Notes under the pieces: generated by a model
The model's database searches: none
What the model was told of the DNA's origin: nothing
What the model saw: the letters and a program-made list of their open reading frames with translations, nothing else
Shown here: positions 1 through 54,829 of the stretch, piece after piece
Layout of the letters: each line of letters starts with the position of its first letter
Position numbering within the stretch: position 1 is the stretch's first letter
From: Nereocystis luetkeana
Lineage: Eukaryota; Sar; Phaeophyceae; Laminariales; Laminariaceae
Assembly (NCBI GenBank): GCA_031213475.1
Contig: JARUPZ010000004.1
Location: 4,907,169-4,971,168 of the forward strand
Reading direction: 5' to 3'
DNA length: 64,000 nucleotides
Program-made: the position numbers and the translations under genes

Positions 1-60
1 AAATCCCTTGACGTTGCTGGCCGCTGGCGACTTCACGGATGAGAAATCATTGGAGGTGTT
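1..60 (+). CDS. Gene A LRR exon (3' part only)
   Basis: The first bases of the exon lie outside the window. The frame reads N-P-L-T-L-L-A-A-G-D-F, then ends with two bases of a Leu codon before a GTAAGT donor. By order it corresponds to the copy B exon at 28966, but it is one codon longer and not obviously the same unit. Confidence 0.7.
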
Positions 61-1169
61 GTAAGTACGGTGCATACTACTATAGAATCCACCCAGTTGA
101 ATGCTGAAAACGTTATGGGGCTTTAGCTCCATCTTGTAGGTCTCGGGTACTGCTGTAGGTGTAGTTCCGACCGGGTTTTCGCGGAGTCGAGAGTACCGGG
201 CAATTCAGAGGCTTTAGCCGGTTGACGGTATGCTCGCCACTTAGATGGGAAACCTGCAGCAGTCAAGGATCAGTGAACGTTTCGGTCGACGCACGAGTAA
301 ATGTAGGTATTGGAGCGCGCTCCGGAGTGGTAGTGACGAAGACAATTAAATGTGTGCTGTAAGGGTTCGCGATAAACAGCGGGTAGAATAAAGACCCAGG
401 CGCACGCTTCTAGTGATTATTCCACCAAACCCGGTCGCGGCAAAGTTTCAGCGCGACTGGTGCAATGCACCGACTCTTATTACTTCGCCCATCTCTTTCG
501 TTCCGTGGCCAACAACTTCATCAACCGCAAAAGGAGCCTGCGCGCTATCGACGCCGAGACCCTGCCGTCAGGTGTCTTCGAGGGGTTGGAGTCTTTACTC
601 GAGCTGTGAGTGAGCCATCGCGATATCGCATGTTGACCAGTGGTTGTAACAGCAACCACTGTCTTATCTTTTCACCGACATGTCTAGCACACTAGCACGT
701 ATCGCACGCAGCAAGGTTGATACGAGTGCCGAGTAAAGTCATGTCCCGCGGTGTTTGCGCAGCTCACATTTGCAGTCTTTCCTCTTACGCAATCAGCAGA
801 TGTTTCGCAGAACGAAGGAACAGTGGAGTCATGTTCCTCGTCACATTCAGCTCCGTGCTACGTTCGTAGAGTAGCACCTTGATATACATATTACAGCTAG
901 TGTTTGGGGGACGTTATCGCACACTGCGGGTTTCTATCCAAGCTGTCGGCGTACAACTCCACCGCACGATTAAGAGCTTGCTTTCGCTATCGTCGGTTTG
1001 CCGCGTCGTGCTCAACGGCTAATCAGGGATCTTTCGGGCAACGATTTCACCACCTTGCCAAGCGACATCTTCAACGATGTGCCATCGCTCCTCGAACTGT
1101 GAGTGACGTGTGAGATGACGACAGCTGGGCACTGCTCTGGATACACAAATAGCGAACAGCAAGTACCCG

Positions 1170-1205
<36 letters not shown>

Positions 1206-4200
1206 TACTGCAACGCTGACATAGCTGATTGTGTGCATGTAGCAAGCCAGAATGCCACGTACGAAGCGACGTCCCGCCTTCTCCTGCACGGCCGATCCCG
1301 AAACGTTTTGTGTACGCCAACGTGCGTCATGTTCGCAAGCCAACGGAGTACCACTGCGCTATGTACGTGATACACGGGTTTTCCTACTGCCCCCCACCGT
1401 TATACCGGCCTTGTCACGTATCCGGTACATCATACTGTCAAAGGGTTTTGAGTTCGTCGCCCATCACACGTGTCCGGAAGCGCCGTGTCGAATAATACGT
1501 TGTTATTGACTCTTACCCCTGTCTGGCTACGCCCGGAATTTACCGTATGCAGCAGAATAAAAGCGACCAACACATATTGTCGCATATTTCGGCATCGGAT
1601 GGTGAGGTCACATCCACCTCTGCGGCGAAATGAAAACACCACTACCTCCTCCCCCTCCGCTTGGTGCCTTCCGGTCGTCCCTTGCATTTGTAACCGGTCA
1701 GGGATATGACCTTCAACCGTTTCATCACCTTCCCAGCCGACGTTTTTGACGGTTTGTCGGCTCTACGAACGTTGTAAGTGGGCCCTGCATGGTGGAATGG
1801 GAGTTGAGCAGTAGACAAAATCAAGCAAATCGCTAAACGGCAACAGGCGTACGGGCACGCGACCTATGCCCTCACCATCCGCGAGCAGGCGAGCATTACC
1901 ATTTGCAGGATAATGCCCCACCATTGAGCCCTGCTTTCGAAGTCGGCTTGGCGGCTCCTTCTGCAGGGTGACGAGACGCGATTTGGGCACGTTGCAACCG
2001 GCTTCCTCCCAGTAAACACTCAGCCGTGGTATCGTGTGGTATAGCCTTTACAATGTTAGTGAGGGCTTCGAAGCTGTAAACGTCGGTACCGTGCTTTGGT
2101 CTCGTTGAAAGCTCTCTATTCCACGAGTTTTTCTCAGTATTTTATCACGATGGAAGCGACCCACTACCCGCATATCGTCGCAAATAGGTATTGGCCAATC
2201 CACTCTTGCAGCGTCTCGAAAGTGCATATAAACAACTTCCCTTTTTTTTTTTTTGGGGGGGGGGGGGGGGGGCGACTGTTCGTCACCTCGTGCAACGCGT
2301 CTTCGAAACAGGATCCTTGCGAGAACTGGGATGACCGTTCTGCCAACCGGCCTCCTGGATGGTTTGACGTCCCTGACATCGTTGTGAGTGCCCTTGAAAT
2401 GTACCAGGGTAATTCAACACAAGCATGGATGTTTGATCAATTACGGGGGAACATAGTTAATAGGACAAAATATTATTTGTATAAATTGTTAAGTATATTT
2501 TTTTTTTTGTGTACACCATAGGTCCTATTAACTGTGGTCCCCTGTAATAGTACGAGATAATGGCCTGTCATGAACCTGCACTGGTGGAGCTATGCGCACG
2601 CCGTAGAAGAGATAAGCTTTAGCCGTGCTTCGCCAAGAGAGGGTTTTACGTGCAACCCGGATGCGCCTTGGACAACCGGCAACATATCGGTACTAGTTGC
2701 GGCGGGTGCGAGCGGTTGTCTTCCACAGGCATCACCTTGAATCCAATGGTTGCGTCGTAGATACTGTTCACTGTCGGAACCGGACTACAGAGGGGTGACG
2801 TATGTGGTGCGGCGTTCGGTCCGACGTTCACCTGCGAGAACATGCATCGGACGTTTTCGTAGCTTGTCGTCGTAGAAGCCCCCCCCGACGACAGTTGTTT
2901 AAGCGGGGCTTGTGCTGGACGGGTGACCCCAGCATTGTCTAGGGAACCGCATGTTCTGCGCATGTATGGCATGGCACAGTCGCTGCTGCCGTGCCAGATG
3001 TGCTGTATGGGGTATACATACAGGTAGCGGTAGAAATTTGGTGAACTAATCAATCAGCTGTTGACATTTCTCGAGATTTCATCTTGCGAGGATCTGACAG
3101 AAATGCCATCGCTTGGTTTGGACCCCCATCACTCCTTGTAAAATAGGTCGCTGAACAGCAACGAGTTGACCACCCTGGACGAAGGGACCTTCCAAGGCAC
3201 ACCGGCGCTGGAATCATTGTGAGTGGCTACATTGAACCTTCCCAGTTAAGCACAGTAGTGGCATCGTCAAAGCTCGGCTGGCGTACGGCCGTCTTGAACA
3301 TTGTTGGATGCCGCCATTTAATCGTTTCGTTCGTCCATTCTCCCGATCCACGAGAAGAAGCGAGATGGGCAGGGATTAGCAGGGGTTCCCTTCTCGACAT
3401 TCAGTAGACCATGGGGATGACGGCACTGTCCAACAACCGGCCCACCGCCTTCTTGTGTTGAACATTGTGTAAATATCGCACACGCATACTGTCGCCGCTA
3501 CCTGCCGTCTTCGTGTTCCCCATCGCCATGGTTGACACAGGGACCTCGGCCTCAACGACTTGGGCACTCTTCCTGCAGGCACCTTTGCTGGCATAGACGG
3601 ATCTCTCATTGAGTTGTGAGTACAGCAACCATATTCCTTAACAAGCAGCTAAACGGAATACCGATACCACGTTTTAGTGTTTTGGAATGTATGCCAGCTT
3701 GTACTCGCGGGGACTTCCATCTCAGGTACTTGGTTACCCACACGCCGTGCCATATGATACGCACTCCCAAGGGCGCGGGTGTACGACATTATATGTGGAC
3801 GCGCGTACGGGGTGTGTCTTGGGTATTGTTGTGATTTACTCGTGGTGCTCCAACGATGGTGATGCGTTGCCAGCCGATTTCTTCGAGTGCTGTGCTCTAC
3901 ATCACCAAGTACGTAGACTTTGATTATAGCACAGGAAAATACGTTTTGTACGTAGCCCTTGGCCCATTCTACGATACAGGTAGCACATTTTCGCTATTTT
4001 TTTTGTTTCTGACAGGCGGGGTTCCTTCCCCCCAAATCGTGGGAATGTCAATCTTGATTTCGAAAATATACGTTTGGTAGACTTGGGCCAGACGGGATTA
4101 TTCGCCGCGATGCAGTTTGATATATGCTGAAGTCAGTTTTCGGGTGAGGTATGGAGCTCCTGAAGTGAGGAGCCTCAGGAAATTTAGGGTGAACCTCTAT

Positions 4201-7200
4201 CGTAGAACGCCTCCCCTGCTCGGGCAAGGAGTGAACACAAGGCGCCAAAAACCACTCTAACGCCAATGCGCCAAGCACCGCTCTAACGCGCATACCCAGA
4301 TACGTACATCTACGTGCCTGGGAGGACTGAACGCTCACGGCAGGAACTACATTCCTGAGCGCAAGGAACCACCCCCCAGTGCCAGTCGTGTAGTATATCC
4401 CACACAACAATGGCCAAGGTCGATGCGTCACATTCTTCCGTCAGAGAGATTGTTCGACTCTCACAGTTTTCAGTTTTCATCAGAACAGTATACATCAAGC
4501 ATGCCCCATATCTCAACATGTGACACAGATCAGGAGAATAACGTTGGTTAGTAAAAGTTGGCATCCTGTTTATGTGTTGATGGTGCGTTATTCCTATCAC
4601 GAGTTAGTGTAGAACCAGGGGTTGTGGTTGATGCATTCCTTTCCTGCAGTACACGGTGGCGAGAACGAAGGCAGAAACATGCGGTTACCTCGATTCAGTT
4701 ATGTGGTTCCTGGCATCCTAATGCTGTCGAGGGGAGGGTCTGCGGTATGCGCTTGTAAGGTGGTGTCCGTGTGCCGTTCGCAAACCAACCGTTTTGTCCC
4801 GTCTCTCTTCCCCCCCCCCCCCACATTGGTGCCACCCAGGAAGCTTGAATCTAACGAACTCTCCGAGCTGCCTGCCAACCTATTCGACGACTTCCCGTCC
4901 CTGCAGACTCTGTGAGCACTCTTTGGTTGCAAACGTAAAAGGTGGCTACTATGTCAATATCTTAGCGCGTATCGATTGGGGGGCAGACTGTTCGTGTATT
5001 GCCTTTATTTACGGGGCTAGAATCAGTTCCTGGTGAGATCCAGGTACATGCGTAGGCCCAACCCAACCCTCAATCCCAACCCTCGTCTTAACCTCAACCC
5101 TGATCGGAACCAAAACAGCCCCAAAACTGGGGAGAAACGCGGCTTCGCCGCATGCTCATCTGGCAAGAACATTGCAAGAGCATTCGAAACGCGGCCCACG
5201 ATTCCGAAGTGCGGAAACCGCCGAACATTGTTCGACACAAAATCCGCGCTAGCATATTGTATTACCTAGTGACAGCCGTGAATTCCACCAGGCGTTCTTT
5301 GCGGTTTCCTTTGCGGAAATCTTCGCCGCCCGTGACCTTCACGTGCAGGGATCGTGGTGATTGTTCGGCGTAAATCGTAGAATACAGTAGGAGACTTCGC
5401 ATATGGATACAGGGCGAACTGGAGCCTAGACTCGAGTCCGCTATATCGCGATGAGCGCAACACGTTCACCCTGCCCTCCTCGCTTATCGCCAACCTCGCC
5501 TCGACGATACAGGGACCTGGTCTTCAATGATATTAAGCCAGAGGCCGGGGACTTCGAGGGAGCCACCTCTTTGATTGAACTGTGAGCGAAGCAATGCCTT
5601 TCAGTCCTACACCTGTTTATCGGCGCGCGTTCTACGTCAGATTTGTTATCGTACGTAGCTGCAGCAGAACTGCAGACGACGATGGTCGTGTTCACAGTTG
5701 TAGCAAGTCGGTTCACGCGGTCATGAATGCTCTTGTCGCCAGGAGGCGTTACTGTAGTACCCGTTTCTTTCCGTTGTACGGATGGTGCTTTTGAGCGCGC
5801 TCGACGCCTTTGTGAAATAGAGCGACGAGTGCAGGCACGGTTAGCAGATAATCCTAGACACGCAAGAATATATACCAGGTACCAAGTAGGAGCTATCGCA
5901 TACCAAACGCTGAGGCATGCCTGGATCTTCACACCAACGTACCGCATCCTTCGTCCACTGCTGTCCCCTCGGTCGCCGCCTGCCGCCAACGTGGTGATCG
6001 ACCCTGGTAGAAACCTGAGAGGGAATGACATTGAGTCCTTGCCTCCTGGTGTCTTCGAGGGTTTGACGTCTCTTCGCGAACTGTGAGTCCGCCCTGACTA
6101 GGCAGAAGTTGCTAAGTACCTGCAAGCACGCTAGGCGACAGGACTCATTGTCTCGCCAACACTGCTTCTAAAACGGCGTACGTCTACTACCGAAGGCAAT
6201 CCCGCTCGAATTCCGTATAATATAATTCCTCTCGTTTCTTCAGGAGTTCCCACCTGGCAATGTTGTGTACCCAGCGAGATTGCCGCACATTTTCAGGCCT
6301 CACGTTTCTTAGGAACTCCCATCTGGCAATGTAGTGTTTATGTATGTACGCCGGGCTTTTTTGTTTTTTTGGGCGGGCGGGGGGGGGGGGGGGTGACACC
6401 TTGTTACGCCGGCTTCGAGATCTCCACATACAGGCTCCTGGTGCAACACGAACCCACCTTGGTGTTGGTGGCATCTTAGCGTATGTGTCCTCGTTCTGTA
6501 CGATGGGGGGGGGGGGCGTGGGCGTACGACGAAAAAATCCTCTCGCTGCTGTAAAGGTTCGTATCGCAAAAGGAATGGGCCGATTGCACGCCGCACATAC
6601 GCGACTACCTTTGTCTGCAAAACGCCGCAGTGCGCGGTCAAAATCACGTCTTTCACCGACCGACCAGTACGTAAACCAGCCAGCGTTCATCTATCAGACC
6701 CATGCTTTCGGTATTCTGTATGTTCTGAAGACTCTGATGCATTTGTACGTCAGGTCCCGGAATTTGCGTGGTCGGGTTGCGAATGTTTGGACCTGTTGTG
6801 CACTTGAAGCTACATAAGGCGGCATAGACTGCTAGACCGGATATCAAGCTCCGCCAGACATCGTATCGCTCTCGGCCGTTGTATTGCCCCCTGCCCCCCT
6901 CGGTTCAGGAACCTCGCTCAAAACGTCCTCGCGATGCTGTCTGCCGACACCTTCAAGGACGTTTCATCATTGGAAACACTGTGAGCAAAAACATACGACG
7001 ATATAGAGTCTGTGACTTGCGGCGCTCCCGCCTGCTCTCGCAAGTTGTACGTTTGGTATGTACTGGCAAGCTGTGCAGTGGATGTTGATATGAGCTACCA
7101 GGTACCCAGCAGCTCGGCAACAGGGGCCTTTTCTGCCGGCGAAGTCCCTACGTGTTGCCGCGCGACGGAGATACTTGCGTGTGCCACATATTTATTCCCT

Positions 7201-10200
7201 CGCTTCCAAAGCGTGTGATCGTTTGCCGATACCTCACAAGGACCACCTACGTACTGCATCGGGTTGGATTTCTCGAACAAAACGTTTCGGAGCAAACTCT
7301 TGCGGCCGTGTAGAATGACAAGGAAGACCACGGCACAGATACCCTCAAGACCTTGGAATCTGGAGCGCTCGACAGGGTTAACGCCCGGTGACGATGGGAG
7401 TTGCGATGGGGCCGACATAACGGGGCTAAGTCACGACACGAGCCGTCAGTATGATACCAACGAACCCAACGGCCCCGGCCATGAATATCACACTAGCCCC
7501 CCTGCGTTCAGGGGGGGCAGTTGGTACAATCTTGCTTTGGCTGCACACCGTTCTTTCACTCACCCAGCGATGTTGAAAACGGTCTACGATAAGTTCCGAC
7601 CTTTTGTGTGGGGGGAACGCCACCATCTGCCTAACGACATCTCCACAGCTCATCGCCCAACGTCGGCCTCCGTGTCGGCCGGTATTACGGTAGTCTACCT
7701 ACAAACAAAGGAACACTCCACTCTTACGGTAGCAAGCACTGACGACGAACTCATCCCGCGGTAGACGTTGCACGTTTGTAGGTGATTTCCCATGACTGGA
7801 TACGCCCCTCAAGCGAGCACTGTTACTCTTCCTATTATTATTATTTCTCTTGCCATCCGACAATGTGCAGCACAGATCTTCAACATGGATCACTCCTAAC
7901 TTTCCCGAAAGAAGAAAACCTCGGAAACAAAAGGAAACCCATGCACCAAGTCTACCTCCCTTCTGTGCCAACTTTCAGCTTGTCTACTCTATTTCCTGTA
8001 TTTGCTCCTTGTGTATTTGGTTTCGGACTGGCACATAGAAAACTCGGTCGGGGTGCGCAAACGAACTTCGTCGAAGTAATATTTCCGGTGAGATTCTGAG
8101 CTCCTCAGCTGAAGAGATCGCGAAGCAACGTACCACCCCGACCCCGTAGTATTGTTTGACGCCCGTTCAAGCCCAAGAGCTGCCAACCCTACTTATTACG
8201 GGGGAGCATACTAAATAGGACCTACGGTACACACAAAAACCTATATATTTCGGTCCTATTTACTTACAATATTCGGTCCTATTTACTAGCTAGACCCGCG
8301 AAAGATGCAACATCTTTCAACCCGATTATCTCCTTGAGGACTAAACGTCCCAGCTGAGGATGCCTTGCGTGGATATCAGATGTTCGTAATCGTACCTACT
8401 AAACTCAACTTCGTGTTTTCGATTGTCACCAAGTGCACATACTTTTAGGATTTGGTACATGTACAAATCGATCAGCGGAAAGCGCGGGAGCCTGAGCTTT
8501 CAATATTCGATGAACATCAACGAGCAGTGGGAATGCTGAAGTCTATGCGTGATGAAAAGGAATGCACGTTCGGGGGGGAGGGGGGGGGGGGCGACGGAAA
8601 GGCACCTGTGACCATGGCGTGTGCAGATGGTCGCTGAGGGTAAAACCTCCTACAAGTTGAGGTGGAGAGTACTAGTGATGGAAAGAAAAACAAACAAAAG
8701 GGCAGTTGTAGGAGTTCACGAGCGTTCTCATGACCACATCCACTGCCCGAGCTACTCTATTAGATACCGGTATGCTTCACTCCCTGCCCCAAGTTGACCA
8801 TGTTGCGCCTGTTCTGGATACTTCTGCGCCTCTTGATAGAGACCTGAACGGCAACGACCTCTCTACCCTGCCCGCCGGGCTGTTCGACGGACTTGCATCT
8901 CTTCAGAGCTTGTAAGTGGCATCCTGTTGCGTTTGACTCAATGGAGGGCCTGCAGTGCACGAGTTTCTCACTTGCATTGTCCCCACCTAGTCTGGGCCAG
9001 CCCGTATCTTCGCTACATTCCTCGATTAATTTCTTCGCCGAGCCATGCGCACAGCAGCAACCGATGCTATGGTCCCGTGGCTTACGCTCCTAGGCAGGAT
9101 GATGCATAGACCCTCGTATGTTCTACGACGGATGGGCAACGTTCCAATCTTCTCTACTCTGGCAAATTATATTTTGCCTTTCGGGGTCGTTTTCATCCTC
9201 ACCGGTGCTAGAGTAGGGCGGTAGTCTCTACGCCCCTTATTGTCAGCCGACCCGAACCACTAGGCCAATTGACAACATAAACAAATTCGATATTGAGAAT
9301 CAGGTGTATATGGCTTGTCGTTTCGCGATTTGCACGTCATGGAAGAATGTCCACTTTGAGTTTGTTGTAATGCGTTTTTCATGTGGTTCTGTAACCGCGA
9401 TGACACGAACACCGATGGTAGGGTAGCATCCGGTGAGCCCCTAACACGACTTTAGTTTCGTGAGCGATATTATAACGTTAGCGTCCTTCGATCGTCTGAG
9501 TCTACACAATGAAGCCGACTACGCCTGCCTAGTTTGTTTCGCTTCCATAACGAGTACATAAGCAAGGTCGTTTAACGGTTTGCGACGAAGGCTTCGAATG
9601 AGTTTCCCCCTCTTGGTAGGTTCGTTCAGGCCCGGGGAACATCAAGACTGTCTCGAGCGAAGCTATCAATCATCCTTCCGGGTGGCGCACGTTGGGTTGT
9701 TGACCATTATCCCGTCTTCGTGTCACGTTCGGGCGTCCGTCTTTTTGTGACAGGAATTTGGAGCGCCACGATAATCTTCAATGTGTACCTGACACGTGAG
9801 GGCGGTAGAAACTCGGGTTTGATTTATTTGTGAAAGGGGTACGACAACTTCCTGCACTCCAGGCCTAGCACATTACGTAGTGACATGGTGCCGAGCTGTG
9901 CACATCGTGCGTGGGGTAAACGACGATTTCGTCACCGCACTAACTCTGCATTCGACGCGTTTCTGTGATTCTTGATGTAGCGTGGACCACGCTGCCAGGC
10001 CTTTTGCACTGCCTGCTCGCGGTTGGGTAGGTTTGGGGTTTCATCTGATAGCACCCAGGCTCGAGGTTGTGATTGCCTCGTAGGGATAGAGTCATGTTTA
10101 CTCCGACCCTGAAGGCGCCAGCCTCATAAAAGAAGTAGACAGACTGCTACTAACCAGTGCGGTCAGCGCCTCTCCATTTTCCAGCGGCTACAAGTTCGGC

Positions 10201-14608: not shown

Positions 14609-14705
14609 CCATCTTGTATCGACTGCTTACGCAGGCAGCTGTACTCGCACATCTATACGCGGAATAGTACCTAACCATGATGGAAACTCGATCATGGGAT
14701 ACCCG
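14609..14705 (+). promoter_or_regulatory. Conserved 3' flank with hairpin downstream of gene A
   Basis: About 100 bp after the TAA are nearly identical to the flank of copy B, although the introns of the two genes have drifted far more. The block contains a perfect 7-bp inverted repeat, CCATGAT (14675-14681) and ATCATGG (14691-14697), around a 9-base loop. It may be a 3'UTR element or the edge of a gene-conversion tract. Confidence 0.35.
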
Positions 14706-20098: not shown

Positions 20099-20100
20099 TA

Positions 20101-20133
<33 letters not shown>
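20099..20133. repeat. (AT)n microsatellite
   Basis: An uninterrupted TA run directly 5' of a CT-rich stretch and the R1 repeat. Confidence 0.85.
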
Positions 20134-20136
<3 letters not shown>

Positions 20137-20189
20137 TCTCATCCCATTTATTATCTTCGCACATCTTCTTCTCTCTCTCCTTCCAACTC

Positions 20190-22440: not shown

Positions 22441-22454
22441 GTATCAATATTTTT

Positions 22455-28693: not shown

Positions 28694-28734
<41 letters not shown>

Positions 28735-31700: not shown

Positions 31701-34700
31701 TGAACACCCATCACGATGGAAGCGGCTCACTACCCGCTTACGGACGCGATGTTTTCAAGGCCAATCTACTCTTGCAGCGTCTCGAAGGGACATATAAATA
31801 ACCGTTTTATGTTCTTTGGGGGCAACTGCCCGTCGCCTCTTGCGCCGCGTTCTAAAACAGGGTCCTTTCGATAACAAGGATGACCGCCCTACCAGTCGGC
31901 CTCCTGGATGGTTTGACATCACTGACATCGTTGTGAGTGGCCTCGAAAAGTACCATGTAAATTCGATATATACGTAGACGTTGATCAAGGAGGAGTAATG
32001 GCATGCCAGTTACCCGCACAGATGGAGATATGCATGCGCTGTAGAAGAAGTCAGCCCTACCTGTGCTTCGCCACGAGATGGCAAGTCGCTCCGTGCTTGC
32101 CATTGGTCGTTCAGAGCCAATGTGGTTCGAGTTAAACCTAGATGCGCCTTGGAAAGTCTGCCATAGATCGAAACCAGTTGTGACGGGTGCGAATGGTTTG
32201 GTTGATATAACTATATATCCCATGCTTGCGTCGAAAATACTGTTCGCCGTCGGACGCAGACCATAGAACGCTGGCTTACGTCAAGCGGCGTTCGATCAGA
32301 ACCCATCGGCGTGAACAGGGATCGGACCTTTTCGTAGCTTGCCATTGTAGCCCCCCCCGGTGCTCCTTCTTTCAGTGGTGTTCGTGCTGGGCGGGTAACA
32401 CCAATCAGATTCGCGGGAAACATATGTTGTGCGCATATATGGTATCGTACAGTCACTGCCGTAGTGCGAGGTGTGCTGCATAGGGTGTATACATGTAGGG
32501 GTAGGTAAGGGGGGAACTAACCAATTAGCTGTTGACATTCCACGATATGATATCTTGCGAGGACCCAACGGAAATACCATCGTTTGGTGTGGACCCCATC
32601 ACTCCTTGCAACATAGGTCTCTTGACCGAAATGGGTTGACCACCCTGGACGAAAGGACCTTCCGAGGAACACCGGCGCTGGAATCCTTGTGAGTGGCACC
32701 ATACAAACTTCCTAATTGAGCGTAGTAGTGACATCGTCAAAGCCCGGCAAGCATACGCCAGTCTTCAACATTGATGGATACCCTAGGCAAACTCCTTCAA
32801 TTCGTTCATTCTCCCAATCCGTGCCAAGAAGTGAAAGGGGCAGCAATTTGCGGCGGTTCCCTTCTCGGCACTCACTAAGCCATTTGGATCTCGTAGCCCT
32901 GCCACACACCCGACCCGCTGTCTTCTTGTGATGAACGTAGTGGAAATACCGCAAACCTTATATCGCTGACACCTGCCGACTCCGTGGCCCTACCGCCATG
33001 GCGGACACAGGGACCTCAGCATCAACGATTTGGACAGTCTTCCTGCTGGCATTTTTGATGGCATCAACGGATCTCTCATTGAATTGTGAGTACAGCAACC
33101 AGTATCCCAAGTCATGCGTTTAACCGTTGCCAGCTTGTACTCAAAGGATTCCCATCTCGGGTATTTAGTTTATCGTACGGCGTGTGTGATATGATACGCA
33201 CTTCCAAGGCGGCGAGTGTACGACTTCAGAGGTGGACGCACGTACTCTTTGTCCCATCTCCTGTCGTGAAATTGTCGTGGTGCTCCAACGATGGCGCTGG
33301 GTTTCCAGCGGATCTCTTTGTGCTGTGCTCAACACCACCAGTAAATACAACTTGACTGCAGCATAACAAACTGCCTATTGTGCGATGTTTTCGTTTGGGC
33401 AATGAATGAACACAAGGCGTCAAACACCGCGCTAGCGTACGTACCTACGTACGTTAGTTCACGCTCCAGGGAGGGCTGGACGCACACGGTAGGAACTCAT
33501 TTTTTTCTCTCATCGAACCCCTCCCTCCGTACCAGTGGTGCAGTATATCGCGCACAACAGTAGCCAAGGTAGATACGCCACCTTTTCGGCTACAAAGATT
33601 GGTCCACTCTCACAATTTTCACAGACACATATCACAAGAAGCATGCCTCAGACCCTGTCAAGTGCCATAGGTCAGGGGAAATGCATGGGTCCCTGCGGTC
33701 TGGCCATCAGTTAAATTATAGAGTGCATGATTTCTATCACAAGCTGGCGTAGAACCAGGGATAGAGATCGATGTATTTTTTTCCTGTAGTACGCTGTGGC
33801 GAGAACGAATGCAGTAACATGCTGTCACGTCGTTTTTGTTGTGTTGCTCCTATTCATAGCACCCTGATGATTTCCTGCAATATGGGTATGTAACACAGTG
33901 TCCACGAGTCTGTCTCAAGCCAACCATTCTGCTCGGTCTCTGTTCCCCCAACACATTCGTGCCACTCAGGAATTTTGACGTTAACGCACTCTCCGAGCTA
34001 CCTGCCAACTTATTCGACGATTTCCCGTCGCTGCAGATTCTGTAAGTATCTGTCGGTTGCGAGCGAGTATGGGAGCGCCTAGCACATACGATCTCTCACC
34101 GTCGGTTCCCAGAGGATAGGCTGTCCGTGTATTTCCCTACTTCGGGTCTAGAATCGTTACCTAGTTATGGCAATGTATGGGCGGAGACCCAACCCAACCC
34201 CTCACTAACCCTCGCCCAAACTCTAACGCTAATCCTAATCCCAGCCCGAACCCTAACACTGACCCTAACCTTACCCTAGCCCTGACCCAGATCTGACCAA
34301 AAACGGACGGGACGAGGGGGACAAACACGACTTTACTGCCTTCGCACATGGCGAGGATGTTAGGAGAGCATTGTGAACGCGGACCAATATTTCAATGGGC
34401 GGATAACGCCTACACATATTTACAAGACAAAACCGTCCCCTGAAAATCCTCGACAACATCTTGTATTACATATCGAGAGCCGTAAGGTGTACCAGGTGTT
34501 CTCAGAGGTGTTTCTTGCGGAACCTTTCGCGGCGATAGGTGCGTACGTGGAGGCATCATGGGGACTATCCTGCGTACTCGTAAACCACAATAAAAAACTT
34601 CGGACATAGATTCAGGGCGAATGGAGGGAAGGCTAGAGTGGAGTCCGTGATCCCGACACTCGCAACACCCTTACGTTGCCCCCTCGCTCGTTGCCAATCT

Positions 34701-37700
34701 CGCCTCGACGACACAGGAATCTGGTCTTCAATACTATCAAGCCACAGGCCGGCGACTTCGAAGGAGCCACCTCTTTGATTGAACTGTGAGCGACGAAGGC
34801 ACTTTTAGTTCCACGCCAAGTTATAAGCGAACATCGTTTGTCAGTACCTGTCGTTCTACGCACAGTAGCAATTGCGGGAGAGCGAACGACATTGGTCGTA
34901 TGGGCAGGGGTAGCCAGTCGGTGTATGTAGTCATTTACGCTGTTGTCGTTATAGGGTGATTAAGCAGTAGGCGTTGATATCCGTTGTACCGATCATGATA
35001 TTTATGCGCGCTCGATGCCTTTGTGACATAAAGTGTCGTACACAGGCATGATGAGCGGTTACTCCACGACGACCAATCAATATTGTTTTATGAGCTATCG
35101 TTTTCGAAAGGCTACGGCATGCCCGGATCTTCACACCAACGCACCGTATCATTCGTCCGCCGCTGTCACTCGGTCGCCGCCTGCCGCCAACGTGTTGATC
35201 GGTCCTTAAAGAAACCTGACAGGAAATGAAATCGAGTCCTTGCCCCCTGGTGTCTTCAAGGGTCTGACGTCTCTTCGCGTACTGTGAGTCAGCCCCGAAT
35301 AGGCAGCAGCTGCTAAGTAGTATGTTTGTTCTCGTACTCTACGGTCGGGGTTTTTCGAAACCGTGGACGTACCCGACGATTGCTTGTCCACGCTGTTGTG
35401 CATTGTCTTTGTTCAAACTAATTGCCGTCCTGCATGATGTATACACGGGACGGTACAAATACCGCTATGCGCGGTCATAATCGCGTTTTTCACGGACCGA
35501 CCACTACGTAGCCAGCCACCTTTGGTCCATCAGACTCCTTCTTTCCGTATTTCGCATACATACCCTGACGACTCAGATGCAGTTGTACATCAGGTTCGGA
35601 TAATATGTTGTCGGGTTACGGATGTTTGGACTTGATGTGCGCGTGAAGCTATCTAAGCTGGCGGAGACGCTTGGTCGAATATCAAGGTCCATCCGAGATT
35701 GTCTCGCTCTGTGACAAAATATTCTGCCCGCCCTCTGCCTCCTTGAATCAGGAACCTCGACGTTAATCTACTAACGATGCTGTCTGCCGACACCTTCAAG
35801 GACGTTTCATCATTGGAAACATTGTGAGCAAACACATCATGCAACGATAAACAGTCTGCGACTCGCGGGGCTCTCTATAGCTCTCGCAAGTTGTACATGG
35901 GTATCTACTGGCAAGCTATACAGTGCTCGCAAGATTGAACAACACGGCTGTTCAGTCATCTCGCAGCAGAGGCTTTTTTTGTCCGCGGCTATTCTACGTG
36001 CTCTCGCGCGAATGAAGTACTCAAGTATGCCACATACATTTGCCCTCGTTTCTAAAGCGGCCTCTCCCTCAGCGATACGTACTAAGGGCCACCTAACGCT
36101 CGGGTTGGATTCTTCAAACAGAACGTTACGGAGCGAAACCTGTAGGAGATTGGAACGCCAACGGAGACAACGACACAAATATCGGGGGTCGAACGCTCGA
36201 TGACAATGCGAGCTGCAGTAAGGCCGAAATGACGGGGCCAATCTATCTCGTTATGAGCCGTCGGAATGGTGCCAACGAACCCAAATGGTCCAATCACGGA
36301 CATATTTTTGTCCCCTCTCTTTTCAGAGACGGCACTCGGTGCGGTCTTGCTACGGCTACACACCGTTCTTTCACTTACCAAGCGATTTTGAAAATACCTC
36401 TACGACAAAGTTCAAGTTCGTTTGGAGGGGTGTACCACCATCCACCGAGCGACCTTCTCGACAGGTCCCCCAACGTCGGCCCCTTTGTCGGCTGGTACTA
36501 CAGTGGCTCACCTGCGAAGCATGACCCCGAGCGTACGGTAGTAAGCACTAACGACGAATTCATCCCGCGGCAGATATTGCACGTTCGGAGGCAATTTTAT
36601 TCTGACCTCCTCGAGCGAGCACTACTTATGATAATGTAAATCTTCGTTTCGAACCATTAATAGCACACATAAGCTTGGTCGGGCTGAGCCGACAACCTTC
36701 GTGGCATTACAGTTTTCGGTGAGATACTGAGCTTGTGCTCTGGAGAGCTCAGAACGCAAGGCACCACCCCGACTCCCATGTAGTTACTCGACGTCTGTTT
36801 ATGACCAGGAAATGCCAATCCCTACTAGCCGTTACATGTTTAGTCAGGTCTCCGCTGTCGAAGTCTGGCAGACGTTACCGGTCTGATCACAAGTGTTCAG
36901 GATGTTACGGATGGACCACGAATTCTTCCAGAAGCATTCTACCGCAGTTACGGCCAAACTTATACGTATTGCTCCTCATTACGCCGGTGAAACACGTAGC
37001 CCGTTCGGCGTCGTGCACTCGATGTTCACACGCACCATTATTCCTCTTTATTTTTTCTGTATATAAGTACCGATACTAAGTACATGCACACAGGACGCGA
37101 CGTCGTTCTACCCGGCCATCTCCTTGAGGACTGAGGTCCCGGTCTTGGGATTCCTTGTGTTGTTTTCAGATGTGTGTGTATACAGTGGCTTGGTGGATCG
37201 TCCTCGTACCTAGGTTTTGTGGGTGAGATTTATCACCGAGTGCACATACTCGTAGAATTTGGTACTTGCGTACAAGTCGGTTGCTGGTAGGCGTGAGAGC
37301 GTGAGCTAACAATAGTCGATTCACATCGACTAGCAGTGGGAATGCTGAACCATATGCGCGGTGAAAAAAGGGGCACTTGCCGGGGGGTGAAGGAAAAACA
37401 TCCGTGACCACGGCTTGTCGAGACGATTGCTTATGGCAAAACTTTATTCAAGTTGAGATGCAAAGTGCCCGTGATGGAAACACACATCACCCACCAAACC
37501 AAGAGGTTAGTTGTAAAGGCGTTGACGAGCGGTTTCTGGATCACAGCCACTGCTTGGTCTACGGTACGTCTCACGCACTCCCCCACATTGACCATGTTGT
37601 GCTCGTTCCGGATTTTTCTGCGCCTTTTCATAGAGACCTTGACAACAACGACCTCTCCACCCTGCCCGCCGGGCTGTTCGACGGACTTACCTCCCTGCAG

Positions 37701-40700
37701 ACCTTGTAAGTGGCATCTCGTTGTGTTTGACTTAACCATAGACCCGCAGCACACCACTTTAATACTCACATCGTCGCCACCCGGTCTGCGCCAGGCCGTA
37801 TCTCTGCTACATTTCTAGATTATTTTCTTCGCAGAAGCATGCCCACAGAACCCGATGCTATTGTCCTCTGACACACACTTCTAGGTAGGATGATACATGG
37901 ACCCTCGGGTGTTTTACGACGGATGGGCAATGTTCCAGTCTTCTCTACTCCGGTACCGGGGGTGTTTTCGCCCCACTGGTGTAACGCTAGGCGCGTAGTT
38001 TCTACGCCCCAGGTTGTTCAGCTGACCACAGCCACTCGGCCGTGTGACTATCGTATGTACTTGGGGTGTTAAGTATGCATACGTCTTCTGTCTCCGCGAT
38101 GTTCCCTCCCGTGTAAACGTCCATGTTGAGCTTGTCGCAGGCGCCAGGCAAGAATAACGCCGTATACGTTTTTTATGCCGTTGGTTGAACCGCATTGATA
38201 CGCACACCGACAGTGTTCGTGTCCAAGGTAGCATCCAGTAAAGCCGTACGCAACGGCGTTACTCTCGCGGGCAATACTATATTGTCAGTGTCCTTCGATC
38301 GTCCCAGTCTACACGACAAAGCCGACTATGCCTGCCTACTTTGTTTACTTCCTTATATCGAGTAGTCACGCGAGGTAGTGTCACGTTAGTGACGAAGGCT
38401 CCGGATGAGTTTCTCCCTCTTGGTAGGGTAGCTCAGGCCCGTTGAACATCAGGACGATCTCGAGAGAAGCTATCGACCATTGGTCTGGGCATACGTTAGA
38501 TCGTTGACTATTGTTTCGTCTTCGCGTCACGTTCGGGTGTTTCTGTCTCTTTGTCCAGGGTTTTGACGCGGAACGACAATCTTCAATGCCTACCTGACAC
38601 GTGAGGGCCATAGAAACTCGAGGATGGCTTTATTTGGGAAAGGGGTTCTACTACTTCCTGCACCTTGGAGCTAGGACATTCTTAGAGACATGGTGCTGAG
38701 CCGTACATATCGTGCGTAGGTGTGAAAGGGTTCACGGCGACTTCATCAACCCACTTAGTCTCCGGCCGTCTACTGTTTGGTTTTTGGTTCGCCTCGTTCC
38801 TATGGTACTTGAGTTTGCGTGGACCACGGTGTCAGGCCGTTCTCACGTCCTTCACGCGCTTGTGTGTTTTTCTCGTTTTATCTACAAGCACCCAGCCCTG
38901 CGGTTGGCATTTCTTCGTGGGGGCAGGTTTATGTCTCCCTCAAGGTCGATTTCGCCCGCCTGATACAATAGGTAGACAGACTGCTACTATCGAGTGCAGT
39001 GCATGCCTTCCCGTTTACTAGTGGAATCATGTTCGGCACAAACATTTCGCAATTTTAACCGTGAGGCTGACGTTGCCTCGCGATGGAAGTAAAATGCCTA
39101 CCTTAAAAGATGAGCATGTCGACTTTGCGTCCAATAAGTTACTACCCAGTGCAGTCCCTGCCTCCCTTCTTTCTGGGAACGTCCTGATGTGTCTACCTTG
39201 GTGCCCTCAACGATATCAAAATGGCTTTCCCGTTTGAACCTCTATGCTGCCCATCATCAGAGGGTCGGCGACAGTGGATCTTCCCGATGCTTTCGACGAG
39301 GCAGGAATATGCGGTGAGTGATTAGGCAGTATGGCTTTTGGCTAGCGAATGCACCAAGCCCAGGTAACATGCCGCAAGATCTGCCTCTACGTGGGGGAGC
39401 GGACTTTCATACAAGTGTACGAAATGTTTTGCAACGGCTCGAGATGCGGAAACACTCGACACGATACGCGTTAGCGTTGATATTCAGAGCAAATCTTTAT
39501 ATTGGGCGTTTTGACTCGCGGGAGAGATATATGTACGTTTCGCTGGTGAAGCATGTGTTCTATTTTCCGCGTATGTGGTAGCTAGGAACCAGAGCCGCTA
39601 GTGTCGAGATATGGCAATTGAGCCTAGGATATAACACACCATTGATGTACGCCTCTGGTCGACGTGGTGCTCTCGATAAGAACACGGGCGTCACACTGTG
39701 GTTGATCGTGTGTGCTTCAGTGAAGGTCACACACTCATTCTACATAGTACAAGTTGGAATTGTGCGCGCGTATGTACCGTAGGTATATCGTGATACGTGG
39801 TGCCATGGCTCTTCGTGTGAGTCGCGCATACCCTGTCCCTTGCACAACAGCATAGCGGGCGATTCGTACGTGGTTTGGCTTTGGGACTCGCCCGGAACTG
39901 GTCATCGACAGATCCATCTGGTAATACTGTATGGGTATTGTACCAGTACGCACTTCACACGCAATGTGCAATATGGCGTCCCTTGCTCCCTAGCTTGGAA
40001 CAATCAGCGTCGAGTGATACAAAATCACCTCGGAACCCCCGCAGACGAGGTTGGCAGTGCAAAGCGAATGTTCCAGTAGAATTGTGGTTCTGCTTCTGCA
40101 ACCCCTTATCCAGCCAGCCAAAGCACGGAATACCTCTCTCCTTTCTTTCTTTTTATTGTTAGGGTTCACGCCTGTGTGCGAAAAAGTGAACAGACGACCC
40201 CGTATCACACTGCAGCAATGCTGTGGAATGCTCTGAGATAGCCATATCTGGTTTGACGTCTTGCTGTTGTTTTGTACTCCGTAAATACGAGGAATATCTT
40301 TGAGTCGACTCTTGCACCCATTGTTGCGAGCCGGAGAGAAGGGCCCGATGGTATAAGTGCACGGGTGGTGTTTGGTTTTCGTTGGAGTTGAAATGAGGTA
40401 CGTTCGTCCAACTCTCCCCTCCTCGAGTCAATTGCTTTCTATACACATATATACATATGTATAAATCACCCCACTGTTTGTTTCTAACTCGTGTCACGCA
40501 GAGTGCCCGGAAGACCCCGTATGCGACGAAGACGGTGTTGCCTGCGACTGTCAGCCTGGAACAAATGGCTACAGCTGTGGTGCGTAATACAAGTGATACC
40601 CGCCTCGTTTTATCCCTACTGAAGTCTCAACATCAAAGAGTACACATCCTGGCATCGATGATTTTCAAGGCATCAGTATAAGCGCATGGGCTTGGAACCA

Positions 40701-43127
40701 GAACACGGGCCTTGGTGTCAGCACCTAGGCCTCTGGGCCACATCTCCGAGGGCCAGGGATTCGGGCTGCATGTAAAATATAACCAGCTTTATCACAACGG
40801 GTTTCGAATATGGTTTCGCGCGGGCACTAGGTGCGAGGAATGCGTCACGTTCCCGTGAACATTCATTCGTCCAATACATACTTTCATCTTCATGCCCCCT
40901 GCTTGGCATGCTCTCGTTTCGCAGGAGGGGAGGGGTCAGTGTAAGAGGGCAAGTGGCTTATGTGAGGGCTTTGCGCAGTATTGGTTGTTGTGATGTTTGA
41001 GAGGCAGCAACCTCTCCTACGTGTAACAATGGGATCCACGCAACTGCTGCAGTTTCTTCGCGTGGTGTTTAAAAACGAGAAGGCGACAAAAAACGCTTCT
41101 CTGTTCTGACTATTGGGCATGCGTCTTTGCCTGCCTCGTTGTACGTTTCTGCAGGGGGGTCGTCTCACGCGCTCAGGAGGGCGTTTCCGTGTCCATCGTC
41201 GGGTGAGCATTGGGTTGCCCTGAACAAAAGTGCTCCGTTGATGTCCCTCCTGACCTGCATTACTGTCCGCCGCAACACACCTATACCGGTTGTGGCCAGC
41301 GTATTCTATTTTCATTTTTCTTCTCGCGATTGGTACTGATTGGGGGACATGGTGTGCAGAGGACTCATGTACCCCTTGGAAAACGTCCTTGGCGGATAGC
41401 GAATGACCTAGAGACGCGCATGGTGCCCTGTTGGGCAATCTGTCAAGTGTCAGACGCCGCTGGGACGAAAACCCGTGATCACCGTCGCCAGTGACACGGC
41501 ACTGTCTCGCGCAATATTCCTGAGCCATCGAGTGACATCGATAGACTCGTAGATTCTCCCCATATCTCAATATCCAAATAGAAGAATCCCCATCCAGCGT
41601 GGAACTCCTTAATACACAGTAAGATATCTCCTTTGCGTCGTGCTCCTTGCCCCAATTCACCATGCAGACTAGGGTTTTGAGTTCTGGGAAATGGCTCATC
41701 CCACGGTAGGGGTGCAGCAGAAAATTCTGAGGCTCCTCACATCAGCTCAACATCTCACCCAAACCATCACCTCCAAGAACCTCGTTTCGTGCATGCCACC
41801 AGACCAACATTTCTATGCGCCCGTCCTGAAACAAACAATCCATAAAACCAAACATTCGAACCGGTAGTTCCTCACTTGAAGGGCTCAACCGGTCAGAAAC
41901 CTCTGGCCGAAAACGTGCAACCCCCTACCGTGGGATGAGTCAAACGTCACTTCGATCTTGCGACGTGGAAGGTATCGGTCGAAGCGACGGTGACGCCGCA
42001 ACACACATCTGGGTGAAGGAGACAATAACGGATAGAATAGCGTTCCCACTGCAGTACCGGTTGGGTAGTGACGATTGCATGTGCCGACGAAATCGCTTGG
42101 CAAAAGGGGCCACTAAGCGGTGCTAGGCAGAGTGTGAAGGAGTGCCGGTTTATGTATATATAAAGTTCTAGGAATTTTGTCTGGGGCATACCCGCGCTAT
42201 AGACGGGCTTTACGGATACTAAGCACGCGATGCGCAAGAAGAGCGGAACGAACCAAGTTAGCAGCAATGCTTCGTTAGAGACACCACCACAATATATAAA
42301 TGCACTTGTGAGTAATGTCTGTGTGGTGTTTAGCCCACCATTATTTAGACAGATGAGCGGGGCAGTGGTCGTTCGACTGCATGGCAAACAACAACTACGT
42401 TAGAATCACAACTGACGACACCTGCAGTACTAAGGTGTTGATTCAGTTGGCTGTAATAGCAAGATGACTGGTTTCATTGTACAAAACTTGAGTGGCGTTA
42501 CCGTGTCTGAACTCGGACTGTCCGGGAAAAACATATACACCGCTTGAAGGGGGAAACACACTACTGTACCCTCACCATCCGCAGTTAAGCGTTTGACCCA
42601 GAATCAATATCACAGGCGTTCCTGACGAGCTTACGCAAACCCATTTGTCGTTCAACGCCACCCTCTCAGACCTCGTTGACGTGAGGGAAAGGACCTCGGT
42701 CGAAGTGGATGCCACTGGGTACGACAAGCGGACGTCCGGAAGTGGCTGCAGCCCTGATGGCTGCGTTCCGTACAACACTCGGGACGACGACCTCTTGGCG
42801 AACTCTCGTTGGTCGTGCCAGGGAGGTATCCTCGACAGCTCTGAGGACGACGAGGGTTGCTGCATCACGTACTCGTTCGAGGAGCCTCAGGACATTGTCA
42901 GGATGCAAATTGCCTTTCACAAGGGAGATGAGAGGGTCCGGACGCTAGACGTGTTTGACAATGGTGATTATCACAGCACAATTGGGTCCAGTGGCTCGAC
43001 ACTTGGATACCAGAGCTTCGACATTTCCACCGACGAGACGGAGGACATCGAGCTTTGCCTAGAGGACCCCGAGATGAGCACTGACGTGTGGCTAAGCATC
43101 ACCGAGGTACGTTGGAGGGACACGTAA
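25691..43127 (+). CDS. Gene B: secreted LRR-EGF-F5/8C protein, one LRR exon frameshifted
   Basis: This is the tandem paralogue of gene A, with 21 exons: 25691-25742 (signal peptide), 26306-26357, 27574-27663, 28359-28430, 28966-29034, 29583-29654, 30579-30650, 31237-31312, 31861-31932, 32617-32688, 33011-33085, 33970-34041, 34717-34785, 35212-35283, 35752-35823, 37634-37705, 38559-38600, 39261-39313, 40502-40579, 41155-41202, 42670-43127. Phases match at every junction. Without the 76-bp exon at 31237 the exons total 1734 bp, or 577 codons plus a stop. If that exon had the family length of 72 bp the product would be 601 residues. Included as it is, it shifts the frame and gives a stop in the exon at 32617. 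The protein is expected to be exported; function is inferred from domains only. Confidence 0.75.
26306..26357 (+). CDS. Gene B exon 2: Cys-containing N-cap
   Basis: A TTCAG acceptor and GTAAGT donor flank DTRCFLDDRCTAGATSL. It enters in phase 1 and leaves in phase 2, so it adapts the leader exon to the phase 2 LRR cassettes. Two cysteines fit an N-terminal LRR cap. Confidence 0.65.
26760..26877. repeat. (GTAT)n microsatellite
   Basis: About 29 tetranucleotide steps, with one variant unit (TTTG) near 26,813, in the gene B intron between 26,357 and 27,574. Long open frames over it are artefacts. Confidence 0.95.
27574..27663 (+). CDS. Gene B first LRR-like exon, 90 bp
   Basis: A GAAG acceptor and GTGAGT donor flank a phase 2-2 exon starting DLESCDITDEDAGELATCL. 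It is six codons longer than the standard unit and has a ribonuclease-inhibitor-like pattern, L-x-L-x-x-C-x-I-T-x-x-x-x-x-L. It is the only unit of this kind seen. Confidence 0.6.
28359..28430 (+). CDS. Gene B LRR exon, 72 bp
   Basis: A CCCAG acceptor and GTGAGT donor flank NLRLNVLTVLPLDFFEGF. Phase 2-2. Its gene A partner would lie left of the window. Confidence 0.8.
28696..28741. repeat. (AT)n microsatellite
   Basis: An AT run with one CAT break, in the gene B intron between 28,430 and 28,966. Confidence 0.9.
28966..29034 (+). CDS. Gene B LRR exon, 69 bp
   Basis: An ACAG acceptor and GTGAGA donor flank DLDSNGLTLVAGNFKGAT. One codon short, frame kept. It resembles the 69-bp unit at 34717 (both have A-G-x-F-x-G-A-T), which suggests that the two descend from one cassette. 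Confidence 0.75.
29583..29654 (+). CDS. Gene B LRR exon, 72 bp
   Basis: A CACAG acceptor and GTGAGT donor flank NLSGNDIETLPSGAFEGL. Partner of 534-605. It also resembles the unit at 35212 within the same gene. Confidence 0.85.
30579..30650 (+). CDS. Gene B LRR exon, 72 bp
   Basis: A TCAG acceptor and GTGAGT donor flank DISSNGLITLASDVFNDV. Partner of 1027-1098; LP is changed to LA. Confidence 0.85.
31237..31312 (+). CDS. Gene B LRR exon with 4-bp insertion (frameshift), 76 bp
   Basis: Between the TCAG acceptor and the LRR codons, copy B has GGATATATATGACC where copy A has GGATATGACC. The two extra AT steps look like slippage. The last 69 bp still align with 1702-1773 and the GTAAGT donor is intact. 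Retained, the exon breaks the downstream frame. Skipped, the flanking phase 2 exons join in frame. Confidence 0.8.
31861..31932 (+). CDS. Gene B LRR exon, 72 bp
   Basis: An ACAG acceptor and GTGAGT donor flank VLSITRMTALPVGLLDGL. Partner of 2312-2383. The following intron lacks the MITE present in copy A. Confidence 0.82.
32617..32688 (+). CDS. Gene B LRR exon, 72 bp
   Basis: A CATAG acceptor and GTGAGT donor flank SLDRNGLTTLDERTFRGT. Partner of 3147-3218, same LD substitution. Confidence 0.85.
33011..33085 (+). CDS. Gene B LRR exon, 75 bp variant
   Basis: An ACAG acceptor and GTGAGT donor flank DLSINDLDSLPAGIFDGI. Same extra codon as the gene A partner at 3541-3615. Confidence 0.85.
33970..34041 (+). 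CDS. Gene B LRR exon, 72 bp
   Basis: A CTCAG acceptor and GTAAGT donor flank NFDVNALSELPANLFDDF. Compared with 4840-4911, changes after the front segment are mostly silent, while those in the front change residues. Confidence 0.85.
34150..34400 (+). repeat. Dispersed element with telomere-like core, copy 2
   Basis: In the matching intron of gene B. The telomere-like tract (34,187-34,290) is longer than in copy A, with many CCTAAC, CCCTAA and CCCTAG steps. The flanks are more diverged. Confidence 0.55.
34717..34785 (+). CDS. Gene B LRR exon, 69 bp variant
   Basis: An ACAG acceptor and GTGAGC donor flank NLVFNTIKPQAGDFEGAT. Partner of 5513-5581. Confidence 0.8.
35212..35283 (+). CDS. Gene B LRR exon, 72 bp
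   Basis: The acceptor is TAAAG, weaker than GGTAG in copy A, and the donor GTGAGT. It encodes NLTGNEIESLPPGVFKGL. Partner of 6011-6082. Confidence 0.82.
35752..35823 (+). CDS. Gene B LRR exon, 72 bp
   Basis: An ATCAG acceptor and GTGAGC donor flank NLDVNLLTMLSADTFKDV. Partner of 6909-6980; the back of the exon is identical in bases. Confidence 0.85.
37634..37705 (+). CDS. Gene B last LRR exon, 72 bp
   Basis: A CATAG acceptor and GTAAGT donor flank DLDNNDLSTLPAGLFDGL. Partner of 8840-8911. Confidence 0.87.
38559..38600 (+). CDS. Gene B LRR C-cap exon, 42 bp
   Basis: A TCCAG acceptor and GTGAGG donor flank VLTRNDNLQCLPD, with the N-L-Q-C-x-P capping signature. Partner of 9754-9795. Confidence 0.72.
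39261..39313 (+). CDS. Gene B exon before the EGF exon, 53 bp
   Basis: A TCAG acceptor and GTGAGT donor flank TGSATVDLPDAFDEAGIC. It converts phase 2 to phase 1 and supplies the first EGF Cys. Partner of 10428-10480. Confidence 0.72.
40502..40579 (+). CDS. Gene B EGF-like exon, 78 bp
   Basis: A CGCAG acceptor and GTGCGT donor flank a phase 1-1 exon with five Cys. The encoded residues match those of 11628-11705; only silent differences are seen, a sign of strong constraint or conversion. Confidence 0.8.
41155..41202 (+). CDS. Gene B Ser/Arg linker exon, 48 bp
   Basis: A TGCAG acceptor and GTGAGC donor flank GGSSHALRRAFPCPSSG. Partner of 12271-12318 with the same length and phase but a diverged middle. 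Confidence 0.65.
42670..43127 (+). CDS. Gene B F5/8 type C (discoidin/CBM32-like) terminal exon
   Basis: The exon opens after CTCAG in phase 1 and runs to a TAA, about 152 residues. It is about 93% identical to 14151-14608 by eye, with the same SRWSCQGG core, the same cysteines and the same WLSITEV final strand. About ten residues differ, several toward acidic (K to E, R to E, Q to E). A GAG|GTACGT donor is also conserved at 43107, so the end may be spliced to 45578. The family binds galactose-type sugars or other ligands through loops; the ligand here cannot be told. Confidence 0.8.
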
Positions 43128-54821: not shown

Positions 54822-54829
54822 GGAAATGT

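Follow-up and report, generated by a model that had tools for sequence, protein, structure and literature searches.

Two tandem genes, here called copies A and B, lie on the plus strand of a 64,000-nucleotide stretch of the brown alga Nereocystis luetkeana (GenBank assembly GCA_031213475.1, contig JARUPZ010000004.1, positions 4,907,169 to 4,971,168), which was analysed whole and is referred to as the window. The copies are paralogues with one succession of parts: a likely signal peptide, an N-terminal cap (N-cap), an array of leucine-rich repeats (LRRs), a C-terminal cap (C-cap), a laminin-EGF-like exon and a C-terminal exon of discoidin fold. Amino acid differences between them concentrate on the LRR face expected to contact ligand, and profile and model comparisons suggest that the C-terminal exon encodes a CBM32-like module, closest to the module of the alginate lyase AlyQ that binds cleaved alginate. 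The reading we prefer, at a probability of roughly one half, is that A and B are secreted, recognition-type LRR proteins anchored to wall uronates, the CBM32-like module providing the docking and the LRR face capturing a variable partner.

Exon anatomy of copies A and B

Both strands of the window were scanned blind for exons of the pattern AG-[57-90 bp, phase 2-2]-GTRAG with LRR spacing. The scan returned 20 matches, 10 per copy, all on the plus strand within copies A and B, and none outside the two loci or on the minus strand. Exons 534-605, 28966-29034, 31237-31312, 35212-35283 and a 90-bp exon came from less strict splice-site patterns and from homology, bringing the LRR units in the window to 12 for copy A (one truncated by the left edge) and 14 for copy B (one frameshifted). 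The first-pass annotation, made from the sequence alone, had described secreted LRR genes in tandem and had counted the same numbers of units; the arrangement and the counts are borne out, and a likely signal peptide fits the proposed secretion. Its picture of single-exon, phase 2-2, 72-bp units holds in general, but lengths of 69 and 75 bp, one 90-bp RNase-inhibitor-like first repeat and a damaged exon of 76 bp also occur. The signal-peptide exon ends in phase 1, the EGF-like exon is phase 1-1 and the C-terminal exon begins in phase 1; the phase symmetry earlier ascribed to the cassettes is found in the LRR exons, the 42-bp repeat exon (both 2-2) and the EGF-like exon, but not in the N-cap (1-2) or C-cap (2-1).

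Copy A starts 5.1 kb upstream of the window and was completed from 10 kb of adjoining upstream sequence (L030). Its translation runs to 664 residues with zero internal stops and 16 LRR units, including the 90-bp repeat. The reading frame ends directly after the CBM32-like module, without a kinase or transmembrane segment. The N-terminal exon is hydrophobic by hydropathy scan and by eye, and is conserved in copy A; it is a putative signal peptide, so judged, and the proteins are likely secreted.

A homologue, P0002, has the same module order: N-cap, 30-residue first repeat, five 23- or 24-residue repeats, an LQCLP repeat, cap, EGF-like and CBM32-like modules. Its 393 residues are encoded without introns on a contig of 1,610 bases (source 'lgn'), presumably a spliced transcript. 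P0002 prompted a search of A and B for an extra 42-bp exon, which was found in both copies (A 9754-9795, B 38559-38600). The exons are listed below by window position, negative numbers lying upstream of window position 1.

-5111 to -5060, +, copy A likely signal-peptide exon (upstream sequence L030)
-4365 to -4314, +, copy A N-cap exon (upstream sequence L030)
-2902 to -2813, +, copy A first LRR exon, 90-bp RNase-inhibitor-like repeat (upstream sequence L030)
upstream, +, copy A, four further LRR exons after the 90-bp repeat, the last being the edge exon of the next entry (L030)
-11 to 60 (in window 1-60), +, copy A LRR exon across the window edge, SLEQNPLTLLAAGDFTDEKSLEVL; in the two-exon cassette that B is without
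534-605, +, copy A LRR exon, 72 bp, phase 2-2; second cassette exon, no B counterpart (looser sites and homology)
1027-1098, +, copy A LRR exon, 72 bp (blind scan)
1702-1773, +, copy A LRR exon, 72 bp (blind scan)
2312-2383, +, copy A LRR exon, 72 bp (blind scan)
3147-3218, +, copy A LRR exon, 72 bp (blind scan)
3541-3615, +, copy A LRR exon, 75 bp (blind scan)
4840-4911, +, copy A LRR exon, 72 bp (blind scan)
5513-5581, +, copy A LRR exon, 69 bp (blind scan)
6011-6082, +, copy A LRR exon, 72 bp (blind scan)
6909-6980, +, copy A LRR exon, 72 bp (blind scan)
8840-8911, +, copy A LRR exon, 72 bp (blind scan)
9754-9795, +, copy A 42-bp C-terminal repeat exon, phase 2-2, NLERHDNLQCVPD (prompted by P0002, then located)
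10428-10480, +, copy A C-cap exon, phase 2-1, with the first Cys of the EGF-like module
11628-11705, +, copy A laminin-EGF-like exon, phase 1-1
14058-14608, +, copy A CBM32-like C-terminal exon, including the stop codon
25691-25742, +, copy B likely signal-peptide exon, MLFARAVASFLLVAAAS, ends in phase 1 (picked among several hydrophobic ATG frames by donor, phase and conservation in A)
26306-26357, +, copy B N-cap exon, phase 1-2, GDTRCFLDDRCTAGATS
27574-27663, +, copy B first LRR exon, 90 bp, RNase-inhibitor-like repeat (looser sites and homology)
28359-28430, +, copy B LRR exon, 72 bp (blind scan)
28966-29034, +, copy B LRR exon, 69 bp (looser sites and homology)
29583-29654, +, copy B LRR exon, 72 bp (blind scan)
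30140/30141, +, copy B junction where A has about 1.03 kb with two additional LRR exons
30579-30650, +, copy B LRR exon, 72 bp (blind scan)
31237-31312, +, copy B damaged LRR exon, 76 bp, frameshift in an AT repeat (looser sites and homology)
31861-31932, +, copy B LRR exon, 72 bp (blind scan)
32617-32688, +, copy B LRR exon, 72 bp (blind scan)
33011-33085, +, copy B LRR exon, 75 bp (blind scan)
33970-34041, +, copy B LRR exon, 72 bp (blind scan)
34717-34785, +, copy B LRR exon, 69 bp (blind scan)
35212-35283, +, copy B LRR exon, 72 bp (looser sites and homology)
35752-35823, +, copy B LRR exon, 72 bp (blind scan)
37634-37705, +, copy B LRR exon, 72 bp (blind scan)
38559-38600, +, copy B 42-bp C-terminal repeat exon
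39261-39313, +, copy B C-cap exon, phase 2-1
40502-40579, +, copy B laminin-EGF-like exon, phase 1-1
42616-43127, +, copy B CBM32-like C-terminal exon, including the stop codon

Test assemblies that left out the 42-bp exon, B exon 28966 and the upstream exons of A matched Pfam LRR_8 above its curated cut-off (E 4.3e-55 for B, 1.1e-55 for A), and the Pfam results for the assembled proteins included no Roc or COR family. A Foldseek search with the P0002 model matched the Nogo receptor, netrin-G ligand, scaffolds based on variable lymphocyte receptors (VLRs), Slit2 and Toll-like receptors (TLRs). LRR proteins in records named bacterial match the repeats equally well, and the resemblance to animal LRR proteins is for this reason one of class, with descent not established; the assignment to the extracellular class of Toll, Slit and VLRs made in the first-pass annotation stands in that sense only. 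The EGF-like module has six cysteines spaced C-x-C-x5-C-x6-C-x-C-x8-C, and the C-cap exon holds the first of them, as expected of the split EGF module proposed earlier; its match to the laminin-EGF family falls below the Pfam cut-off.

Several simple repeats lie in the window: (GTAT)n, repeated 30 times within an intron of copy B (26761-26882), and AT repeats at 1172-1204, 20099-20133 and 28697-28742. Further downstream are a 93-bp tandem repeat (3.5 copies, 87% matches, 52037-52358), a shift in G+C and skew over 52-60 kb, and, on the minus strand at 53490-57000, pieces of a polyprotein like that of long terminal repeat (LTR) retrotransposons, with reverse transcriptase, RNase H and integrase Pfam matches.

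Divergence between the two copies

Identity between A and B was 84% in exons (1287/1532 aligned bases) versus 68% in introns (7559/11109), both values computed before the 42-bp exon was added and with A 534 paired to B 29583. That pairing has been rejected, since in the light of the upstream sequence B 29583 corresponds to A -920. The ratio of nonsynonymous to synonymous rates (dN/dS, or omega), by the NG86 method, was 0.35 when pooled over the 304 codons of 13 paired LRR exons, one of them the 90-bp repeat, and 0.33 over the final 160 codons of the C-terminal exon. At 94% DNA identity the C-terminal exon lies above the LRR exons, for which homogenisation may be the cause.

Copy A carries a cassette of about 1.03 kb (-335 to 693), with two LRR exons, that is missing from B, where its flanks join at 30140/30141 with the frame preserved. 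The cassette was either gained by A or lost by B. It bears out the in-frame exon gain and loss predicted by the first-pass annotation, and rules out an earlier reading of no exon gain or loss between the copies. Of the shared exons, 13 pairs were compared, 12 of them intact and of the standard kind, the other the damaged exon, and the 90-bp repeat not among them. They stand in identical order in A and B, and each exon best matches its own counterpart, so that shuffling after duplication has been modest rather than rampant. Of the rapid shuffling suggested earlier, exon gain or loss is thus seen, but rearrangement of the shared exons is not. The damaged exon (B 31237-31312) is 76 bp long through an AT-repeat insertion relative to A; its inclusion brings a stop at residue 211, and its skipping preserves the frame.

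At exon residues 0, 2, 3 and 5, which lie exposed on the strand in xLxxNx, A and B differed in 30/48 cases over 12 exons, versus 28/227 elsewhere (Fisher p 2e-12), with an omega of 0.96 on the strand face and 0.24 elsewhere. As a control, the four positions were circularly shifted; 0 of 21 shifted sets equalled the strand-face count, and the highest (22/48) shared two positions with it. Other non-consensus positions differed in just 17/108. The last residue before the exon junction, on the same face, was also often different (36/60 when added). In the P0002 model the LRRs form a regular solenoid, with block mean predicted local distance difference test (pLDDT) scores of 84-96 over residues 21-180, and each of six repeat-end strands spans an exon-junction site placed by homology.

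The C-terminal module and related loci

The first-pass annotation had called the C-terminal exon F5/8C. A discoidin beta-sandwich fold was supported by structure prediction and profile search, but Pfam F5_F8_type_C gave no match, either in a first scan at E<=0.01 or in one of the assembled proteins at E<=10; an ordinary F5/8C identity was consequently rejected, and we use the term CBM32-like. Single-sequence phmmer of the exon against the PDB returned 0 matches. In a profile search of the PDB, all six sequences at E<=1 belonged to the uronate-binding CBM32 subgroup (AlyQ/YeCBM32), five of them at E<=0.0033 and YeCBM32 at 0.11. The carboxylate-binding Arg R248 and the ligand Trp W303 of AlyQ correspond to R106 and W158 in both A and B, and D209 and T307 of its Ca site match D56 and T162. 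From these correspondences and the model, the module may bind uronates. It has in common with AlyQ and AlyB (alginate lyases) and the pectin-binding YeCBM32 the profile, the fold, the carboxylate Arg, the ligand Trp and two Ca-site residues. In their records the CBM32 is lyase-attached or free-standing, whereas here it terminates an LRR protein, has additional cysteines and is interrupted by an insertion next to the Ca site.

The named homologues of the module belong to Choristocarpus, to Laminaria and to 'Undpi1', a record read as Undaria. Among 20 pattern stretches in prokaryote genome contigs there was 1 relative of the algal module, the sole prokaryotic one found: an 865-aa Saprospiraceae protein (L001, 1660-4257) with F5/8C PF00754 (E 4.5e-12) and CBM96. 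Two pattern stretches in viral contigs yielded 0 confirmed relatives. In another subfamily of the algal module (P0010-P0015), six predicted frames lose similarity after a GDERTRKIKV-like stretch, which suggests an intron within the domain, unlike the single-exon form in the window.

Across the whole genome, matches to the EGF exon numbered 10. Besides the 2 in the window, contig C4, on which the window lies, has 5 more at 5.17-5.56 Mb; C23 has 2, one of them partial, and C39 has 1. At three of the eight loci outside the window 10 kb of upstream sequence was read, and all three contained same-register 72-bp LRR exons (3, 4 and 6) and the 42-bp repeat exon, with 0 antisense. For the C-terminal exon, 67 candidates yielded 40 scored matches, and 38 of these lie on both strands of contig C3 between 5.96 and 6.85 Mb. 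In the 200 kb of this array that were read (6.29-6.49 Mb, L010-L029), 11 copies of the C-terminal exon were present and the scan found 0 LRR exons. Two neighbouring units compared were 90-95% identical in their main blocks, and in one unit examined a signal-peptide-like exon precedes the CBM32-like exon. A third copy in the window, downstream of copy B at 49155-49691, is frameshifted and 69% identical with seven small gaps; beside it there was no LRR exon by scan and no EGF match. Two proteins, P0041 and the N-terminally incomplete P0043, have LRRs, an LQCxP repeat and EGF-like cysteines as in the A/B family, P0041 also an N-cap and first repeat, but end in a Cys-rich region with a hydrophobic tail in place of the CBM32-like module. 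From these different tails the C-terminal module seems exchangeable.

Possible roles and comparison with known systems

In the reading that we prefer, the CBM32-like module would dock the protein onto uronate polymers of the wall, preferring cleaved alginate ends, and the concave LRR face would capture a partner that varies, most probably a non-self protein or one that degrades the wall. The outcome would be a wall-anchored recognition or decoy protein, acting like an extracellular LRR receptor or a plant polygalacturonase-inhibiting protein (PGIP), in which phase-symmetric exons would permit repeats to be gained, lost or skipped with the frame intact. The nature of the ligand, a role in defence and any use of exon skipping are what we infer here.

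A number of results weigh against this reading. The EGF_laminin matches (E 0.072, 13.7 bits for B; E 0.32, 11.6 bits for A) do not reach the cut-off of 21. The dN/dS ratio varies with method: ten exons analysed earlier, some of them wrongly paired, gave 0.41 by NG86 and 0.68 by YN00, and the final LRR pair set was analysed by NG86 only. The four strand positions were chosen after the A/B pairs had been seen, and an omega near 1 on the exposed face of a single gene pair could also reflect relaxed constraint. Copy B requires exon 31237-31312 to be skipped, or is decaying. Concerning the C-terminal module, P0002 has Phe at the ligand Trp position, AlyQ T214 adjoins an insertion and has no assigned counterpart, the predicted model has a pLDDT of 73 with three stretches below 50, and other CBM32s lie within about 2 Z in structure comparison. 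The start of the module was observed downstream of the EGF exon at one of six 3.1-kb loci (L036), and the copies of the C-terminal exon nearest to it elsewhere in the genome, the LRR-free ones on C3, imply that the module is not bound to recognition.

An alternative at odds well short of even, which nonetheless deserves serious attention, is a structural or adhesive wall protein, with the CBM32-like module on alginate, the LRRs on a wall or membrane protein of the alga itself, no defence function, and face differences produced by duplicates diverging to different partners. The same anatomy fits, including a frame that stops right after the module with neither kinase nor transmembrane segment, and the amplification of the LRR-free C-terminal exon in a large array suggests a bulk wall role for the module; however, the strong change on the ligand face and the differing arrays at other loci are more typical of recognition proteins. 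We regard as improbable a gamete or self-recognition protein on egg or sperm walls, diversified by sexual rather than pathogen pressure. An extracellular LRR class with a diversified concave face would suit it, and Ectocarpus gametes express ROCO and other LRR-domain proteins, though the authors of that work propose an immune role; no sex- or gamete-specific expression is known for A and B, and nothing here specifically indicates it. There is a similarly slim chance that one or both copies are decaying duplicates whose exons persist through recent duplication, as the frameshifts in the 76-bp exon of copy B and in the third C-terminal exon copy might indicate. Against decay stand the excess of exon over intron identity, the low NG86 ratios of both the LRR and C-terminal exons, the intact frame of copy A and the fact that B stays in frame when its damaged exon is skipped. 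A somatically rearranged, VLR-like adaptive receptor, its cassettes recombined within the body of one alga, would share the one-repeat-per-phase-symmetric-exon layout and a fold of the VLR-scaffold class, but is scarcely credible, since the exons sit in complete, spliceable genes with introns conserved between copies, for which germline splicing suffices, and the shared pairs compared keep their order.

Returning to the wall-anchored recognition protein, oligoguluronates reportedly trigger an oxidative burst in kelp, and we know of no brown-algal protein that recognises alginate fragments. For such recognition the A/B proteins offer a concrete candidate: LRR proteins with a terminal module whose nearest relatives of solved structure bind cleaved alginate or pectate. 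A more far-reaching proposal, which we put forward as speculative, is that the secreted LRR family is an extracellular counterpart of intracellular exon-shuffling receptors. Its CBM32-like module would concentrate the proteins at cut alginate, where they would detect or neutralise wall-degrading enzymes or microbes, a damage-addressed pattern recognition varied combinatorially by exon gain, loss and possibly skipping.

Among known systems, the Nogo receptor, Slit, TLRs and lamprey VLRs have in common with the A/B family the LPxGxFDxLxxLxxL class with caps and the structural matches, and differ in their C-terminal modules. Plant PGIPs, likened here by description, are cell-wall LRR proteins that defend against wall-degrading enzymes, in parallel to the role proposed for A and B. 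They have no CBM and belong to a different LRR class. Brown-algal receptor kinases with extracellular LRR domains are already known according to a 2021 review, which also states that it is not known if they interact with wall components. These are membrane-localised kinases, likened by description and not by LRR sequence, whereas A and B have no kinase or membrane segment and end in the CBM32-like module. An LRR-EGF-CBM32 chain was not found in the literature searched, most subscription papers being outside its reach.

The closest parallel in exon structure is the brown-algal ROCO family. Its LRR-ROCO GTPases reportedly encode one LRR per 72-bp exon. Teng 2024 (PMC11378527) describes brown-algal ROCO genes in which single LRRs occupy 72-bp exons that are shuffled, with alternative splicing and with selection on the concave face, and mentions 15 non-ROCO Saccharina sequences with such exons, mostly LRR motifs alone; the one-exon-per-LRR logic with shuffling is therefore not new. 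Phase-symmetric 72-bp exons and concave-face variation are common to both families, but ROCO proteins have a ROC-COR GTPase tandem, and the repeats of A and B lead instead into EGF-like and CBM32-like modules. The N. luetkeana genome gave 0 COR matches and 47 exon matches to the Roc domain, with no LRR exon by scan in the 4 kb upstream of one of them. In the description by Teng, nucleotides 3-71 encode one LRR including the entire LxxLxxLxxLxLxxNxL, whereas in A and B the whole codons are nucleotides 2-70 and the junction falls within the LxL strand. A counting convention is possibly the cause, and the difference in register suggests that the A/B cassette is separate from the ROCO cassette. 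With the A/B genes, the plan of one exon per LRR, published for ROCO GTPases, would reach into a likely extracellular family built from another chain of modules.

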